Origin: Limnohabitans sp. MORI2
Lineage (GTDB): Bacteria; Pseudomonadota; Gammaproteobacteria; Burkholderiales; Burkholderiaceae_C
Length of the DNA stretch: 64,000 bases
Assembly (NCBI RefSeq): GCF_027925025.1
Contig: NZ_AP027058.1
Location: 2,170,001 to 2,234,000, forward strand
Direction: 5' to 3'
The position numbers were made by a program, and so were the translations under genes. The notes beneath the pieces are model-generated. The model saw nothing but the letters and a program-made list of their open reading frames with translations. It did no database searches and was not told the origin of the DNA. Positions 46,058 to 53,065 of this stretch are shown piece by piece. Each line of letters starts with the position of its first letter. Position 1 is the first letter of the stretch.

Positions 46058-46537
46058 TTACTTATTAGAGTCCTTAGGATTTAATTTATTAGCCTCTTGA
46101 TCCAAACTTTGTTCGGTTGAGTCTGGCTCCACGTCATCGAATAAATTCAAAGTTTTGGCACTCACCATCTGGCGTAGCAAAGCCTTTGGCAAGGGTGATA
46201 TCTGGTTGTAGTCATCGATGTAGACATCCATGCCATCCATCATGTTGAAGTGAGGATCGGCAAACAACTTTTTCATGGCTGCATTCTTGACTTCTGACGA
46301 CACATCGTTCGCCACAAAACTGGCGAAATTTGAGTTCGGTGTCAGCTGCTCAACATCCGCCAAGGTGGGAGCTGGCTGGTTCGTCTGCGCTTCAACCGCA
46401 GGCGCAACGGGCTCTACAACACTCGGCACGGGAGGAGATGCGCTCCTGCTGGGCTCTGCTGGCACGCGCCCTTCGCGCACGTCCGACTTGCGACGGGACC
46501 AACGACTCAAAAAGCCATCGTCATTCGACATGCCCAC
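46058..46537 (-). CDS. DUF3306 protein of the FDH cluster
   Basis: 159 residues. It matches DUF3306: an N-terminal SRWSRRKSDVREG, a low-complexity linker rich in Pro, Ala and Val (about 25-65), then TPNSNFASFVANDVSSEVKNAAMKKLFADPHFNMMDGMDVYIDDY, the conserved core, and a charged tail. The role is unknown, but the gene regularly accompanies FDH and DUF3305. The start may be 46537 or 46531 (two ATGs); both overlap the DUF3305 stop. Confidence 0.85.
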   Translation of the reverse strand: MGMSNDDGFLSRWSRRKSDVREGRVPAEPSRSASPPVPSVVEPVAPAVEAQTNQPAPTLADVEQLTPNSNFASFVANDVSSEVKNAAMKKLFADPHFNMMDGMDVYIDDYNQISPLPKALLRQMVSAKTLNLFDDVEPDSTEQSLDQEANKLNPKDSNK

Positions 46538-47093
46538 CTCCGCGAATCTTTTCTGTGCTCACAGAGGCCGGATTCCCAAAACGATCTTGCAGCGGCCTGA
46601 AACTGTCAGGACGTTTGCGGCGTTTGCCTTCAACCACCCAATGCTCATCCACAAAAGCAGCCATCCAAGCCACCACCTCAGCAGGTGCAGGAACTTGATC
46701 CACATGCTCTTGCGCATCTAGCCAGCGCCCCGCGTCGTGATAGCTCAGACTCACCGCAGCAGGTACGGCCATCGGCTGATCCGACAGACGCGCCTCCTCT
46801 TCCATACGCCACAACACAAACCAGCAAGGTGCGGGTGAGGTGGCATTGAGGTAATACCCCTCGGCATCGTCTTTGAACAGCTCCACCGTGAAGCCAGGAT
46901 GCAGCCACATTTGCTCATCTTCCGTCTGACGCAAGCACCTTGGCTCTGCCCCGAAGTGCTCAGCGTGCGGGACTAAGTCGTGACCTGTGACATCGTGCAG
47001 CACCCAACGCCAAGGTTGCCAGCGGCTCATAGCGCCCGCTACGCGTTCGCGGCGCATCACGACAGCGACTTGAAGGTTGGGACGGTGAACCAT
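46521..47093 (-). CDS. DUF3305 protein of the FDH cluster
   Basis: 190 residues, no signal peptide. It matches DUF3305 proteins: VAVVMRRERVAGAMSRWQPWRWVLHDV at the N-terminus, GFTVELFKDDAEGYYLNATSPAPCWFVLWRM in the middle, and a C-terminal SYHDAGRWLDAQEHVDQVPAP region. It is the first gene of the FDH run and overlaps DUF3306. Function unknown; a role in assembly or electron transfer of formate dehydrogenase is inferred from the linkage. It is divergent from the repeat-protein gene, 157 bases away. Confidence 0.85.
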   Translation of the reverse strand: MVHRPNLQVAVVMRRERVAGAMSRWQPWRWVLHDVTGHDLVPHAEHFGAEPRCLRQTEDEQMWLHPGFTVELFKDDAEGYYLNATSPAPCWFVLWRMEEEARLSDQPMAVPAAVSLSYHDAGRWLDAQEHVDQVPAPAEVVAWMAAFVDEHWVVEGKRRKRPDSFRPLQDRFGNPASVSTEKIRGGGHVE

Positions 47094-47250
47094 GTGTGTG
47101 ATGTTAACGAAGCGCCAATGAGAAAGTAACTCACAAGAGTTAACTTATTAAATTTAGAAAATTTTTTCTGTAAATCGCTAAAGAAATTCAGTTTCGTGCC
47201 GATAGATAGGACGCTTGTTAATTTAAGTAGAAATCACAAAAAGGCAACCT
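47094..47250. promoter_or_regulatory. AT-rich divergent intergenic region before the repeat-protein gene
   Basis: This gap separates DUF3305 (reverse) and the 1454-residue repeat protein (forward). It is much richer in A and T than its surroundings, with GTTAAC at 47103-47108 and 47139-47144, and a run of A/T around 47145-47175. It must contain the promoter of the repeat gene; I cannot fix a -35/-10 pair with confidence. Confidence 0.4.
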
Positions 47251-50200
47251 ATGTCCACGATCAATAACGTCACACTCTCTGCAGCCACAGCTGGAACAAC
47301 CGCAACTGCCACTGCCGTGGACTTCGCCGCTCTCGATCAAACAAGCATCAAGGCTTTAGGTGTTGGCGTTTTTACAAGCCTGACGGCCACAGATGCAGCC
47401 AAAATCTCGGCCGATGCATTCGCAGGCATCACCAACGTACAGCTAGCAGCGATTTCTACTGCTGTTTTTAATAAGCTCACAACAGATCAGGTTTCTAGCT
47501 TGTCGGCTTCGCACATCACATCTTTAGCCACGGCAAAAATCCAAGCCCTCTCTACCAGTCAACTTGCTGTGATGGTTGAAACGCAAATCGCTGCGTTGAG
47601 TCAGACGCAAGTTGCCGCGCTCACCACCACACAAATCGGCAAGCTCTCTGAAGAGCAAATGGGTGCCATTAACAGCGTGGGTTTAACCGCACTGCAAATC
47701 AGCGCGCTGAGCACTGCGCAAATCAGCGCATTAACAACACAACAGTTGTCTAGCCTCAGCACCAGCCAAATCGGCTCTTTAGGCACAGACGACATGAAGG
47801 CGTTGAATGAAGAGCAAATTGCCAGCCTGACGAATAAACAAGTCTCTGCGCTTTCTACGCAACAAGTCTCTGCGTTGTTTGCGATGCAATCGCTGGGTTT
47901 TTCCACCTCGCAAGTTCAGAATATTTCCACGCGTGCCATTGCGGCGCTCACTACTGAATATCTCAAAAAACTCGATGAAAACGCAATGGTTGCATTGAGT
48001 GCCATGCAAGTCAAAGCGCTGACCAGCACACAACTCAATGGTTTAACGGATGAAAATTTTCAAGCCATTGAAAGCGGCGACATCGCATCCATTTCAGCTA
48101 CAACATTGGCGACGGTTAGCACTAGCAAAATAAATCGATTGACCAGTGCACAAGTCAGTGCGCTCACAACGGCGCAAGTCAAAGCCATGACCGTGGCACA
48201 AATTGGAGCGCTCTCCGAAGACAGCATCAAAGGCCTCAAAGCCATGCAACTGAGCTCGCTGTCGTCCACCCAAGTCGCAACCCTAAGCTCAGACCAACTT
48301 GCAGCATTCAGTACTTCACAAATTTCGGCCCTCAGCACCAGCGCTATCAGCAACATCAGTGCTAGCAAGCTTAAAACACTGAATGCGAGCTCCATTGCTG
48401 CACTCTCCAGCAGCCAAGTCAAAGCGCTGAGCACGGCGCAACTCAGCAACTTGACGGAAGAACAATTTCAGGCGATCGAAACCGCTGACATCGTAGCCAT
48501 CGCCACCTCCACTCTCACCGCTCTCGCGAGCGACAAAATTGGGGCCCTTACCAGCACACAAATAGGCGCACTGACCACTGCACAGGTTAAATCTCTTACA
48601 ACCACTCAAATTGGCTACCTATCGGAAGATGGCATTAGAGGACTCAAAGCCATCCAAGTCACTAATATGACTTCCGACCAAGTCAAAAAATTTGACACGA
48701 CACAATTAAGCGCACTCAGCGCCAGTCAAATTAATGCACTGAGCACGGCCGCCGTAACAAATCTTGAATCCACCAAACTTCAAAGTTTGGATGCCTCATT
48801 CATCAAAGCGCTTTCATCGACACAAGTCAAAGCGTTGACAACCTCACAAATCAACGCTTTGAGCGATGAGCAAATAGCTGCTATTGAAACAGGTGATATC
48901 GCAGCCATTTCAACTGCGATTCTGTCAAGTATCAGCACCAGCAAAGTGAGCGCAATCACAAGCAGCCAAATTGGTGCGCTATCACTCAGCCAAACCAAGT
49001 CCTTGACAACAGGTCAAATCGAAAAAATTTCTGAAGAGGCAATTGCAGGCCTAAAAACAGCACAACTGAATGGATTAAGCACGGCACAAGTTAAAGCTCT
49101 GTCAACTTCACAACTTTCTGCGATGACTAGCTTGCAAGTGCAAGCTATCAACACGGCAGCCATCAGCCAAATTTCGACAGACAAACTGAAGACCTTAGAG
49201 CCCAGCTTTATTCAAGCACTTTCGGCCAGTCAAGTTCGTGCACTGACTTCTACACAAGTCAATAATTTGACTGATGATCAAATTGCAAGCATAGACAGTA
49301 GTGATATCGCTAGCCTCAGCACATCCGTACTTTCAGCCATTACCACCGATAAATTGGTCGCATTGAACAGCACGCAAATCAGCGCGCTGAGCTCAACGCA
49401 AATTAAATCGCTGACCACCTCACAACTCAGCAATCTGTCTGAAGACAACGTCAAAGGCCTCACTTCCACGCAACTGAGTAGCATCACCACACAGCAAGTT
49501 AGCTCTTTAGCCAAAGAGCAATTCAATGCCATGAGTGCTGCGCAGGTTCAAAATTTAAGTACGGCGGCAATCAGCAGCATTTCAACCAGCACACTAAAGA
49601 ACGTGGATGCTGCATTCTTGACAAATTTGTCAGCCAACCAAGTCAAAGCGCTGACAAAGGCGCAAATTGACACTTTGGATGCCGAACACATTCAAGCCAT
49701 TGAGAGCAATGACATCGTTGCCATGACATCGGCAGTGCTGTCAACACTGGGTGACAGTGCATTGGCGGCCTTCTCAAGCAGCCAAGTCAACAACATGACC
49801 AGCTCTCAAATCAAAGCTTTGAACATCAGCAAACTGTCTGATGATGGCTTGAGTGGTTTGAAAGATGTGCAACTTGCTTCACTCACATCCACTCGCGTGA
49901 ATGAGCTCAGCTCAACACAACTTGGCGCACTCAGCACCGATCAAATCAAATCGTTGAGCACTTCCGTCATTGCCAACTTGGCATCTAACAAACTTAACAC
50001 TTTGGATGCATCCGTGTTCACAGCCTTGACATCGAGTCAAGTCAAGGCATTGACCACCACGCAAATCAACGCACTCAAAGAAGATCAGCTGCAAGGTATT
50101 GGGATCGATGACATTTCTGCCATCAGCACAGCCGTTTTGTCTACCATCGACAAAGACAAGCTGGTTCTCTTGTCTGGGGATCAAGTGGGCGCCTTTACGA

Positions 50201-51615
50201 CAGCACAAGTGCGCAGCTTAACGACTGCTCAACTTGAAAAATTTGGTGAGGAAGAAATTCAAGGTTTGTCTGACGCAGGTATTGCCGCAATTTCAACCAC
50301 TCAAATCGAAAAGCTCACATCCACGCAGCTCAACTACTTGGGCACGTCTCAAATTGCCAGTTTGTCTACCAGTGCAATCGCCAAGATTGATGCAACATCC
50401 ACCTTCAAATACTTATCGACAGACAACATCACCGCATTGAGCACATCACAGGCGAAGGCACTGACATCGACACAACTCAATGCCATGTCAACTAGCCAAC
50501 TGAATGCTTTAGAGGCTGAAGATGTAGCAGCCTTGAGCACACGCGAAATTTCTGGTTTAACTACTGCGCAACTCAACGCACTCACAACCGAGCAATTCGC
50601 AGCCCTGACGTCTGCTGAAATCAAAGCCTTGACAACAGATCAAATCGCAAAATTGACGACCGAAGATGTCAATGCGCTCGCCAGCGAAGCATTTGCTGCG
50701 CTCACCACTGATCAAATTCAAAAATTGAGCACAGATGTTTTGTCTAAGTTAGGGTCAGAACAGTTCCAAGCTCTTACAACGAAGCAAATCACGGCGCTAT
50801 CAACCAGCACCATCGATAAACTGAATGCCTCTAATATTCATGCGCTGTCCACTGAGCAGCTCACCAAACTGAGTCAAGCTCAAATCGACAAACTCACGAT
50901 TGGTCAGTGGTATGACTTAGACCAAAGTCAACGCGATGCCGTGACTGAGAAGAGCCGTCGCGTGAAGGAATTAACCAGCACGCTCTTGAATGCAGCGAGT
51001 ACAACCGAAGTTCAAACAATCGCCGCATCTGATGTCTCAAAAATCACGACAACCGATTTGGCAGCTTTGAGCACGACCAATTTCCAAGCCTTGACCACAG
51101 AGCAAATTGCGGCATTAACCACAACACAAATCGGCAATATCACCACCGACCAAATCAAGGCATTAACTTCGACTCAGGTTGGTTCAATTGAAACTACAGA
51201 TTTAGCTGTGTTGACATCGACCAAGTTGAACGCCTTATCGACCAACAGTGTGGCAGGCTTGACCACCGACCAAGTTGCCTCGTTGTCCACCGGTACGGTC
51301 AAGGGCCTAGACACAACAATCGTCAGCAACTTGATCACGGCCCAAGTTGCAGCACTGACCACTGCGCAAGTGAAAGAGCTAACAAGTTCTCAGCTGAACG
51401 CGTTAACAACGGCAAACATTAAGGGACTTGAAGCTGAAGATCTAGTCGTCATTGCAACCAGCACATTCAAGCTAATCAGCACAGACAACTTGAAAGCCTT
51501 GACATCGGATCAAGTAGCGGCGCTAACAACAGCTCAAGTTCACAGCTTGTTTGTTGACAGCGCCCAGGCCGCTACTCTAACCACCACACTTGGGTGGTCT
51601 AGAAACATCGTCTAA
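47251..51615 (+). CDS. Giant octapeptide-repeat protein with 136-residue super-repeat
   Basis: 1454 residues. No signal peptide, no cysteine, no recognised domain. From about residue 25 to 1440 it is built of octapeptides of form A/S-L-S/T-S/T-x-Q-I/V/L-x (well over 150). Between residues 264 and 1077 a higher unit of 17 octads repeats six times (starts at 264, 400, 536, 672, 808 and 941; steps 136, 136, 136, 136, 133). Each copy opens with a block like NLTEEQFQAIETADIVAI and has a marked GLK/LSED block. The first ~120 residues and 1078-1440 are octads outside that register, and 1384-1435 again resembles octads 1-7 of the unit. S/T-x-x-Q looks like a helix N-capping box, so a short-helix solenoid is possible; a beta-solenoid is the alternative. 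The C-terminus ends SAQAATLTTTLGWSRNIV. Codons differ between copies, so the repeats are old. No transport gene is adjacent. Confidence 0.93.
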   Translation: MSTINNVTLSAATAGTTATATAVDFAALDQTSIKALGVGVFTSLTATDAAKISADAFAGITNVQLAAISTAVFNKLTTDQVSSLSASHITSLATAKIQALSTSQLAVMVETQIAALSQTQVAALTTTQIGKLSEEQMGAINSVGLTALQISALSTAQISALTTQQLSSLSTSQIGSLGTDDMKALNEEQIASLTNKQVSALSTQQVSALFAMQSLGFSTSQVQNISTRAIAALTTEYLKKLDENAMVALSAMQVKALTSTQLNGLTDENFQAIESGDIASISATTLATVSTSKINRLTSAQVSALTTAQVKAMTVAQIGALSEDSIKGLKAMQLSSLSSTQVATLSSDQLAAFSTSQISALSTSAISNISASKLKTLNASSIAALSSSQVKALSTAQLSNLTEEQFQAIETADIVAIATSTLTALASDKIGALTSTQIGALTTAQVKSLTTTQIGYLSEDGIRGLKAIQVTNMTSDQVKKFDTTQLSALSASQINALSTAAVTNLESTKLQSLDASFIKALSSTQVKALTTSQINALSDEQIAAIETGDIAAISTAILSSISTSKVSAITSSQIGALSLSQTKSLTTGQIEKISEEAIAGLKTAQLNGLSTAQVKALSTSQLSAMTSLQVQAINTAAISQISTDKLKTLEPSFIQALSASQVRALTSTQVNNLTDDQIASIDSSDIASLSTSVLSAITTDKLVALNSTQISALSSTQIKSLTTSQLSNLSEDNVKGLTSTQLSSITTQQVSSLAKEQFNAMSAAQVQNLSTAAISSISTSTLKNVDAAFLTNLSANQVKALTKAQIDTLDAEHIQAIESNDIVAMTSAVLSTLGDSALAAFSSSQVNNMTSSQIKALNISKLSDDGLSGLKDVQLASLTSTRVNELSSTQLGALSTDQIKSLSTSVIANLASNKLNTLDASVFTALTSSQVKALTTTQINALKEDQLQGIGIDDISAISTAVLSTIDKDKLVLLSGDQVGAFTTAQVRSLTTAQLEKFGEEEIQGLSDAGIAAISTTQIEKLTSTQLNYLGTSQIASLSTSAIAKIDATSTFKYLSTDNITALSTSQAKALTSTQLNAMSTSQLNALEAEDVAALSTREISGLTTAQLNALTTEQFAALTSAEIKALTTDQIAKLTTEDVNALASEAFAALTTDQIQKLSTDVLSKLGSEQFQALTTKQITALSTSTIDKLNASNIHALSTEQLTKLSQAQIDKLTIGQWYDLDQSQRDAVTEKSRRVKELTSTLLNAASTTEVQTIAASDVSKITTTDLAALSTTNFQALTTEQIAALTTTQIGNITTDQIKALTSTQVGSIETTDLAVLTSTKLNALSTNSVAGLTTDQVASLSTGTVKGLDTTIVSNLITAQVAALTTAQVKELTSSQLNALTTANIKGLEAEDLVVIATSTFKLISTDNLKALTSDQVAALTTAQVHSLFVDSAQAATLTTTLGWSRNIV
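48040..50481 (+). repeat. Six tandem 136-residue (408-bp) super-repeats
   Basis: Starts at 48040, 48448, 48856, 49264, 49672 and 50071; the last copy ends at 50481. The first four are exactly 408 bp apart, the fifth is 399 bp (three residues missing) and the sixth 411 bp. The units are similar at protein level but clearly diverged in DNA sequence, as judged from the opening 48 bases of copies one and two. Confidence 0.88.
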
Positions 51616-51626
51616 AGAAGCACTAC

Positions 51627-51657
51627 AGCATCAAGTCTCTTTGGAGATCTTGATGCT
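51627..51657. terminator. Possible hairpin between convergent repeat gene and apbC
   Basis: AGCATCAAG pairs with CTTGATGCT, extended inward by TCTC/GAGA with one bulge. It lies just after the repeat-gene stop and covers the last codons of apbC. There is no clear T-run on either strand, so terminator function is uncertain. Confidence 0.35.
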
Positions 51658-52722
51658 AGGAAACTTGCTAGAAAAGTCCTTGGCTTTCGCAGCAATTTTC
51701 ACGGCAACTTGGCGGGCCACCGCCTTGTAGATGCTCGCCACTTCGCCATCGGGATCGGCCACCACGGTGGGTTTACCGCTGTCGGCTTGTAGGCGAATTT
51801 GCATGTTGAGTGGCAGCGCACCTAGGTAGTCCATGCCGTATTGCGCGGCCATCTTCTTGCCGCCGTCCGCGCCAAAAATGTGTTCAATGTGGCCACAGTT
51901 GGTGCACACATGCACCGCCATGTTCTCGACCAAACCGAGGATGGGCACGCCCACCTTCTCAAACATCTTGATGCCTTTTTTGGCATCGAGCAGCGCAATG
52001 TCTTGCGGTGTCGTGACGATGACCGACCCTGTCATGGGGACGCGCTGGCTCAGGGTGAGCTGAATGTCGCCCGTACCGGGCGGCATGTCCACAATCAAAT
52101 AGTCCAACGACTTCCAATTGGTCTGGCGCAGCAACTGCTCCAGCGCTTGGGTGGCCATGGGGCCACGCCAAATCATTGCCTCATCTTGATCCACCAAGAA
52201 ACCGATGGACATGACTTGCACGCCATAGTTTTCGAGGGGCTCCATGGTTTGACCGTCTTCGCTCTCGGGGCGACCTTCAATGCCCATCATCATGGGCTGA
52301 CTAGGGCCGTAGATATCGGCGTCGAGCAAACCCACGCTTGCGCCTTCGGCAGCCAAGGCCAAAGCCAAGTTGGCAGCAGTGGTACTTTTGCCCACACCGC
52401 CTTTGCCTGAAGCCACAGCAATGATGTTTTTAACTTGCGGCAACAAAGCCACACCGCGCTGCGCGGCATGCGCCACGATGTTGACCGTGATATTGGCTGA
52501 CACGTTCTCAACGCCCGCCACGCTCTTGGCTGCAGCAATCAACTCTTTACGAAAACCCGCAATTTGGCTCTTGGCTGGGTAGCCCAACACCACGTCAAAC
52601 GACACATCACCATCGTTGATTTGCAGGTTCTTCAACGCCTTGCTGGTCACGAAGTCTTTGCCCGTGTTGGGGTCAATCACGGTTTGCAGGGCAGCGGTGA
52701 GGGTTTGTTCGTTCAATGACAT
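51631..52722 (-). CDS. apbC: Iron-sulfur cluster carrier ApbC/Mrp
   Basis: 363 residues from the ATG at 52722. An N-terminal MIP18-type (DUF59) domain of about 90 residues (ALQTVIDPNTGKDF) is followed by a ParA-like P-loop ATPase: GKGGVGKSTTAANLA (deviant Walker A), DADIYGPSQPMMMG and a DMPPGTGDIQL motif; the cluster-binding CxxC is HVCTNCGH. It carries and delivers Fe-S clusters in the cytoplasm. The longer frame adds 40 unconserved residues. It is convergent with the repeat gene. Confidence 0.94.
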   Translation of the reverse strand: MSLNEQTLTAALQTVIDPNTGKDFVTSKALKNLQINDGDVSFDVVLGYPAKSQIAGFRKELIAAAKSVAGVENVSANITVNIVAHAAQRGVALLPQVKNIIAVASGKGGVGKSTTAANLALALAAEGASVGLLDADIYGPSQPMMMGIEGRPESEDGQTMEPLENYGVQVMSIGFLVDQDEAMIWRGPMATQALEQLLRQTNWKSLDYLIVDMPPGTGDIQLTLSQRVPMTGSVIVTTPQDIALLDAKKGIKMFEKVGVPILGLVENMAVHVCTNCGHIEHIFGADGGKKMAAQYGMDYLGALPLNMQIRLQADSGKPTVVADPDGEVASIYKAVARQVAVKIAAKAKDFSSKFPSIKISKET

Positions 52723-52777
52723 AAGAATTTCTTTACATAGGAATGCGCACAAGTCTAGCGCGAGACTTTTGACGCCG

Positions 52778-53065
52778 TTAGTTTCGACGAGCCACCCAAT
52801 AAGTTGCGCCTTCTGCGCCATACCGCTCGTCGTGGGGGACATCGCGTTCTAGCTCAAAAACGGAACCTAGCAACAGGTGCTGAGTTTGACCATTTAGGGT
52901 CAACCACATCTCGCCGCGCGTGAGGATGGCATGCACCGCAAACGGGTGGGTGTGGGTATCCAGCACAGTGTGAGGCGGCCAGTCGCGCTCAATCACCTCG
53001 TCAAACCCAGCGGCAAGGGCTTGTTGCTTGAATTGATCAAAGCTAGGCAAGTTCATGCTGGGCAT
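52778..53065 (-). CDS. Small cupin protein
   Basis: 95 residues (92 if the second ATG at 53056 is used). The cupin motifs are [25 protein letters not shown] (metal-binding H-x-H and E) and [17 protein letters not shown] (H). The stated role of this family is only sugar or small-molecule binding; no substrate can be read. It is divergent from metG (starts 49 bases apart) and lies 55 bases from apbC on the same strand. Confidence 0.85.

Follow-up and report, generated by a model that had tools for sequence, protein, structure and literature searches.

The repeat family to which the gene described here belongs, ALTTAQ, is curated in Pfam as PF20080 with a 38-position model and a description line that states no function, and our literature search found no paper naming ALTTAQ, HeliScrew or PF20080; wider queries brought up no title or abstract about the family. 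One protein built from the same octads is present in the PDB: HeliScrew4 (9zem, 120 aa), which was deposited under a molecule name only and is similar by sequence. Among described folds, mesothelin consists of 24 short helices in a right-handed solenoid, according to PMC10035497. Here we analyse a gene of Limnohabitans sp. MORI2 that lies in a window of 64,000 nucleotides (contig NZ_AP027058.1, positions 2,170,001 to 2,234,000 of the forward strand). It is an open reading frame (ORF) of 1454 aa with an ATG start (Table 1), it is a further member of PF20080 with a super-repeat that can be explained, and its product is most likely an exported surface rod or spacer.

PF20080 matches the window protein at E 1.8e-206 (668 bits against a curated cut-off of 26.4) in 45 stretches, and HeliScrew4 matches it at E 5.4e-15 over 108 residues. 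The original prediction, made from the DNA letters of this window, had held that the protein contains no known domain, and this has to be withdrawn. The window protein shares the octad consensus and the long tandem tracts of PF20080, whereas the Pfam model lacks the 17-octad unit described below. To the question raised beforehand, whether a known repeat family has the same 136-residue unit, the answer is divided: PF20080 is a known family, yet its 38-position model does not include the unit. HeliScrew4 also matches TALE proteins; TALE repeats are not known to consist of octads, and we set this similarity aside for that reason. Weak Pfam matches (CAAP1, LRR_EndoS, DUF4351 and others) and LRR matches in the PDB sequence search were taken as effects of repeat composition.

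Segmentation with a position-specific matrix divides the protein into 179 octads that span 98.5% of its 1454 residues, with the consensus A-[LI]-[ST]-[TS]-x-Q-[ILV]-x, in agreement with the prediction that octapeptides run through almost the whole chain. Cysteine is absent, also as predicted; there is a single proline, Ser and Thr make up 29% of residues, and the pI is 4.7. Protein self-identity is maximal at a lag of 136 residues, reaching 0.30 over the whole protein and 0.39 within residues 264-1077, and 408 bp, which had been set beforehand as the test lag, is the top lag in the DNA self-comparison. The underlying unit of 17 octads is present six times, with starts at residues 264, 400, 536, 672, 808 and 941 (next position 1078), the steps being 136 aa (408 bp) four times, then 133 and then 137. 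Pairwise identity among the six units is 38-54%. As had been claimed, special octads recur at fixed places. Octad 2 carries xI...DI, with E at the third position in four of six units, D in one and G in one; octad 8 reads xxSE or xxSD, and octad 9 after it has GL, extended to GLK in four of six units; and octad 16 is ALSxxQVK. At lag 17, 74 gapless octads agree on average at 3.91 of their 8 residues. When octad order was shuffled 300 times and the best lag from 2 to 34 was taken, the value never exceeded 2.76.

AlphaFold2 predicted two tandem units (residues 264-535; input of 16 aligned rows, all sequences from the same genome) with a predicted local distance difference test score (pLDDT) of 96.0, and with one helix per octad, 34 in 34, at intervals of 8 residues. 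The C-terminal model (residues 1183-1454) is a solenoid too, with a pLDDT of 86.7. Both models are free of strands, on which ground a beta-solenoid is rejected; this lends model-based support to the original preference for short helices over a beta-helix. Predicted helices start at octad position 4, which puts the S/T of position 3 and the Q of position 6 in N-cap and capping-box places. The N-cap role suggested for S/T-x-x-Q is thereby supported as to where the helix starts. The best Foldseek match of the model is mesothelin (7ued, 8cx3), with a TM-score of 0.36, a root-mean-square deviation of 10 A and 14% identity. It too is a solenoid of short helices but differs in that its helices are not fixed-length octads (PMC10035497). 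9zem was not among the matches of the fold searches, which used a fold library to April 2026.

The spacing of similar octads suggests how tightly these helices wind. The mean octad spectrum of ALTTAQ ORFs from the genus (31 gapless runs, including that of the window protein) has its maximum at 0.294 cycles per octad, which is a period of 3.40 octads or 5/17, and the lesser peaks at 0.414, 0.172 and 0.12 are the second, fourth and third harmonics of 5/17, folded back. Spectra were preferred since the per-lag average over 21 homologs is noisy. The acidic xIExxDI octads alone give a best mean period of 3.40 over 11 proteins. Octad backbones were sampled with the helix set to start at position 4, the loop placed at 2 and the N-cap at 3. 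This yielded 4375 compact non-clashing solenoids from 41600 trials, 4200 of them with 2-4 octads per turn. At 3.3-3.5 octads per turn, positions 7 and 2 are closest to the axis, and the window sequence has Ile, Leu or Val at position 7 and Leu at position 2. Because the genus period is 3.40 octads and the sampled geometry falls at 2-4 octads per turn, 17 octads would correspond to five whole turns. The idea that each 136-residue unit returns to the same face is in this way supported indirectly, through the 5/17 periodicity.

We favour a rod outside the cell with five-turn, 17-octad units, to which we assign a probability of roughly 0.55. Each octad would form one short alpha-helix, beginning at position 4 and running into position 1 of the octad after it, with a loop at positions 2-3 and with Leu2 and Ile/Val7 pointing inward. 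Judging from the periodicity and the sampled geometry, the helices would wind into a compact alpha-screw, each turn taking up about 3.4 octads or 27 residues. Seventeen octads would rise about 5.3 nm (17 x 3.1 A) and the whole rod would measure about 55 nm (179 x 3.1 A). Duplication of the 17-octad unit would bring both the SEDx-GLK pair and the acidic xIExxDI octad back to one common face about every 5 nm. The rod most likely functions outside the cell, as a fibre, stalk or spacer at the surface, where it would offer these stations to a partner, a metal ion or a glycan.

The extracellular part of this proposal rests on relatives that carry export or surface domains and on genus copies that lie near flagellin, GT41 and ABC-HlyD genes. 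We found 184 homologs by scoring the 7987 best candidates, and hand counts of domains in the 120 that were listed gave two-partner secretion (TPS) domains (PF05860) in 14 and RTX repeats (PF00353) in 6; G8 domains, counted alike, are in 13. The metagenomic protein P0002 has flagellar hook-type FlgE_D2 and FlgD_ig domains after its ALTTAQ tract, and another ALTTAQ protein, P0005, has a BapA-like start (by eye). These relatives have long ALTTAQ tracts as the window protein does, but the window protein lacks their additional domains. A protein search with residues 1-110 returned three proteins, each combining ALTTAQ with other domains. The MORI2 genome (one contig, 2.65 Mb) encodes four ALTTAQ proteins, of 1454, 2439, 2046 and 604 aa. 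The 2439-aa paralog comes after flgK-, flgL- and fliD-like ORFs (by eye) and a flagellin (Pfam), the 2046-aa paralog has a second flagellin on one side and a metalloprotease-like gene on the other, and each of the two paralogs lies within 4 kb of a GT41 (O-GlcNAc-type) gene. We surveyed neighbourhoods in 20 stretches from 16 other genomes of the genus and in the MORI2 genome, 17 genomes in total; the script recognised an ALTTAQ ORF in all of the 20 stretches except L058 and L059. An ALTTAQ ORF and flagellin occur in one stretch or gene cluster in 5 of the 17 genomes (G000, G006, G015, G023, G033), an ALTTAQ ORF and GT41 in 7 (the same five, G003 and G027); for an ABC-HlyD pair the number is 3 (G008, G027, G036). 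Over 37 genomes of the genus, ALTTAQ occurs in 21 of 28 with GT41 and in 2 of 9 without (Fisher p 0.014), and in 21 of 30 with flagellin and 2 of 7 without (p 0.08), although neither test is used as proof because incomplete metagenome-assembled genomes (MAGs) confound both.

Several observations weigh against this reading. The neighbours of the window copy are genes for Mrp, MetG, DUF3305, DUF3306 and a sensor kinase, and include no secretion, flagellar or glycosyltransferase gene. RTX repeats (PF00353) and the TPS domain (PF05860) are not among the ten Pfam families that match the window protein at E <=10. No signal peptide is evident at its N-terminus, in keeping with the original prediction, though this is a judgement by eye with no predictor behind it. 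A calpain-type peptidase domain, carried by 29 of the 120 listed homologs, forms the largest domain group there and is neutral on export; the neighbour counts are weak evidence, as many contigs are short and the absence of a neighbour accordingly means little. These points would suit a rod that stays inside the cell as a scaffold or cytoskeletal spacer, in particular the neighbours at the locus, the lack of an evident signal peptide or secretion domain and the peptidase domain of unknown location in those 29 relatives. We nevertheless consider an intracellular rod unlikely, given the absence of Cys, the 29% Ser and Thr, the TPS, RTX and hook domains of relatives, and the flagellin and GT41 genes next to the paralogs.

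The winding also has contrary evidence. In 41 runs from the 120 listed homologs, 0.294 ranks second and period 2 ranks first. The 11 proteins with acidic octads amount to at most seven independent cases, since the window protein and L053, L043 and L050, L042 and L051, and L054 and L066 are orthologous by place or alike; L042 and L051, orthologs by position, give no 3.4 signal for these octads. The five acidic octads counted in the window protein are exactly 17 apart, and therefore every multiple of 1/17 suits them equally well. Furthermore, in the spectra of the window protein and of its ortholog from Limnohabitans sp. Jir61 the maximum is at 5.67 octads and not at 3.4 (5.6-5.7, with top lags that include 6, 23 and 28). 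This alone would fit the same fold wound three times per 17 octads, as a wider superhelix that may be hollow. However, 5.67 octads is the fourth harmonic of 5/17 and so belongs to the same unit, of the other genus runs that peak clearly the majority favour 3.4, and only 1 of the 4375 compact sampled solenoids has 5.5-6 octads per turn. We thus regard the wider superhelix as rather improbable.

Comparison with relatives indicates that the sequence is constrained. MORI2 is a relative of Jir61 (G033), whose ortholog of 1589 aa shares 46% identity and the same place between mrp and the DUF3305 gene. Over residues 1-1000 the alignment is colinear, interrupted by gaps of 1, 3 and 3 residues, and the ortholog retains the same 17-octad order. 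The 2046-aa paralog and its Jir61 counterpart are identical in length and 74% identical, and for the 2439-aa paralog 2230 of 2231 residues align with the Jir61 protein at 60% identity. The ratio of nonsynonymous to synonymous change (dN/dS) against Jir61 is 0.20 for the window gene and 0.10 for the paralog, values that are only rough because synonymous sites are near saturation (0.73-0.77 different). It is the colinear ortholog and the unchanged length of the 2046-aa paralog that argue for constraint. A drifting repeat tract with little or no function would account for the patchy distribution of the family in the genus, where 23 of 37 genomes have it; none of 24 genomes from other families of the order does. 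It would also account for two short ALTTAQ fragments adjoining mrp in one MAG (L113:6187-6789), likely a gene remnant, and for a recent expansion in the Jir61 ortholog (L053:8650-13416). There, residues 1176-1478, near the C-terminus, hold a young tandem repeat of 59 residues (seven octads and three residues), with six AIETxDIA octads in five steps of 59; it is absent from the window protein and is a second super-repeat length within the same gene. Against drift stand the frame kept open across 1454 codons, the colinear ortholog with its 17-octad order kept despite near-saturated synonymous sites, the rough dN/dS of 0.20 and the paralogs of unchanged length, and we hold it to be quite improbable. 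We judge it just as improbable that the protein is a modular binding solenoid of the ARM or mesothelin kind, in which peptides or partners are bound singly by the variable outer positions.

A bolder extension of the exported rod is that ALTTAQ proteins decorate the flagellum in a phase-locked manner, with the 17-octad stations in register with flagellin subunits and GT41 glycosylating both. The axial subunit spacing of the flagellar filament is about 5.2 nm, close to the unit rise of about 5.3 nm, and this nearness, together with the neighbours of the paralogs, is the basis of the idea. We see it as a long shot; if true, the 136-residue unit would act like a vernier, its length matched to that of a different fibre's repeat.

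Table 1. Features of the ALTTAQ locus, in window positions
Feature	Position	Strand	Basis
DUF3305 protein, divergent neighbour	46521..47093	-	
Whole gene, stand-alone ALTTAQ-repeat protein, 1454 aa	47251..51615	+	ORF, Pfam, octad segmentation
N-terminal residues 1-26, T/A/S-rich, low octad scores; start resembles that of the Jir61 ortholog	47251..47328	+	
Unit 1, 136 aa	48040..48447	+	
AIESGDIA, earliest of the acidic octads, at octad 2 of unit 1; counterparts every 17 octads	48064..48087	+	
Unit 2, 136 aa	48448..48855	+	
Unit 3, 136 aa	48856..49263	+	
Unit 4, 136 aa	49264..49671	+	
Unit 5, 133 aa, a single octad cut to 5 residues	49672..50070	+	
Unit 6, 137 aa	50071..50481	+	
Residues 1225-1248, two longer predicted helices interrupting the octad rhythm, lower pLDDT, possible hinge	50923..50994	+	
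Residues 1437-1454, longer last predicted helix and low-confidence tail, kept in the Jir61 ortholog	51559..51612	+	
Mrp/NUBPL-type P-loop protein, convergent neighbour	51631..52842	-	

A scan for promoters and terminators over 46900-47400 found no element. With flanks of up to 1.5 kb, ALTTAQ is found beside mrp at 2 of 30 loci (MORI2 and G010, where the ORF has 1130 aa), in a set of loci without G033. A scan of genome contigs with the window protein as query gave no relative, and the same scan with Mrp gave 80 loci. At these 80, ALTTAQ adjoins mrp in Jir61 and the G010 contig, lies several kb off in one and is present as the fragments already described in one MAG; one further weak match was judged spurious.

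Other ALTTAQ genes have surroundings of their own. Between two ALTTAQ genes, L043:540-8722 encodes two GT41 proteins, a GT2, a TPR protein and a weak O-fucosyltransferase match, and from its gene content this cluster is possibly a protein glycosylation island. Next to it, at L043:8783-11353, an 856-aa metalloprotease-like protein (weak M10/M12 matches) adjoins an ALTTAQ gene, and its counterpart adjoins ALTTAQ in G015 and G033. In G023:C29 (L049 and beyond), an ALTTAQ frame open over 6361 aa comes straight after flagellin and a GT41 gene, and matches 144 bp apart suggest a six-octad step in part of it. L062:1-10723 holds an ALTTAQ protein with a signal-peptide-like start (by eye), convergent with TolC-, ABC- and HlyD-like genes. 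In MORI2 itself, the start of a BapA-like adhesin (by eye) is encoded at L046:698-10580 together with TolC-, ABC- and HlyD-like genes; they form a type I secretion set that is far from the ALTTAQ genes of this genome.

A turn of 3.4 octads, if true, would explain why, in many ALTTAQ proteins, super-repeats and special octads return at 7, 10, 17, 24, 27 and 34 octads; it would allow residues that share a face to be mapped, and it predicts lengths and spacings. The flagellin and glycosyltransferase surroundings of the paralogs provide a concrete place to seek the function of these proteins.

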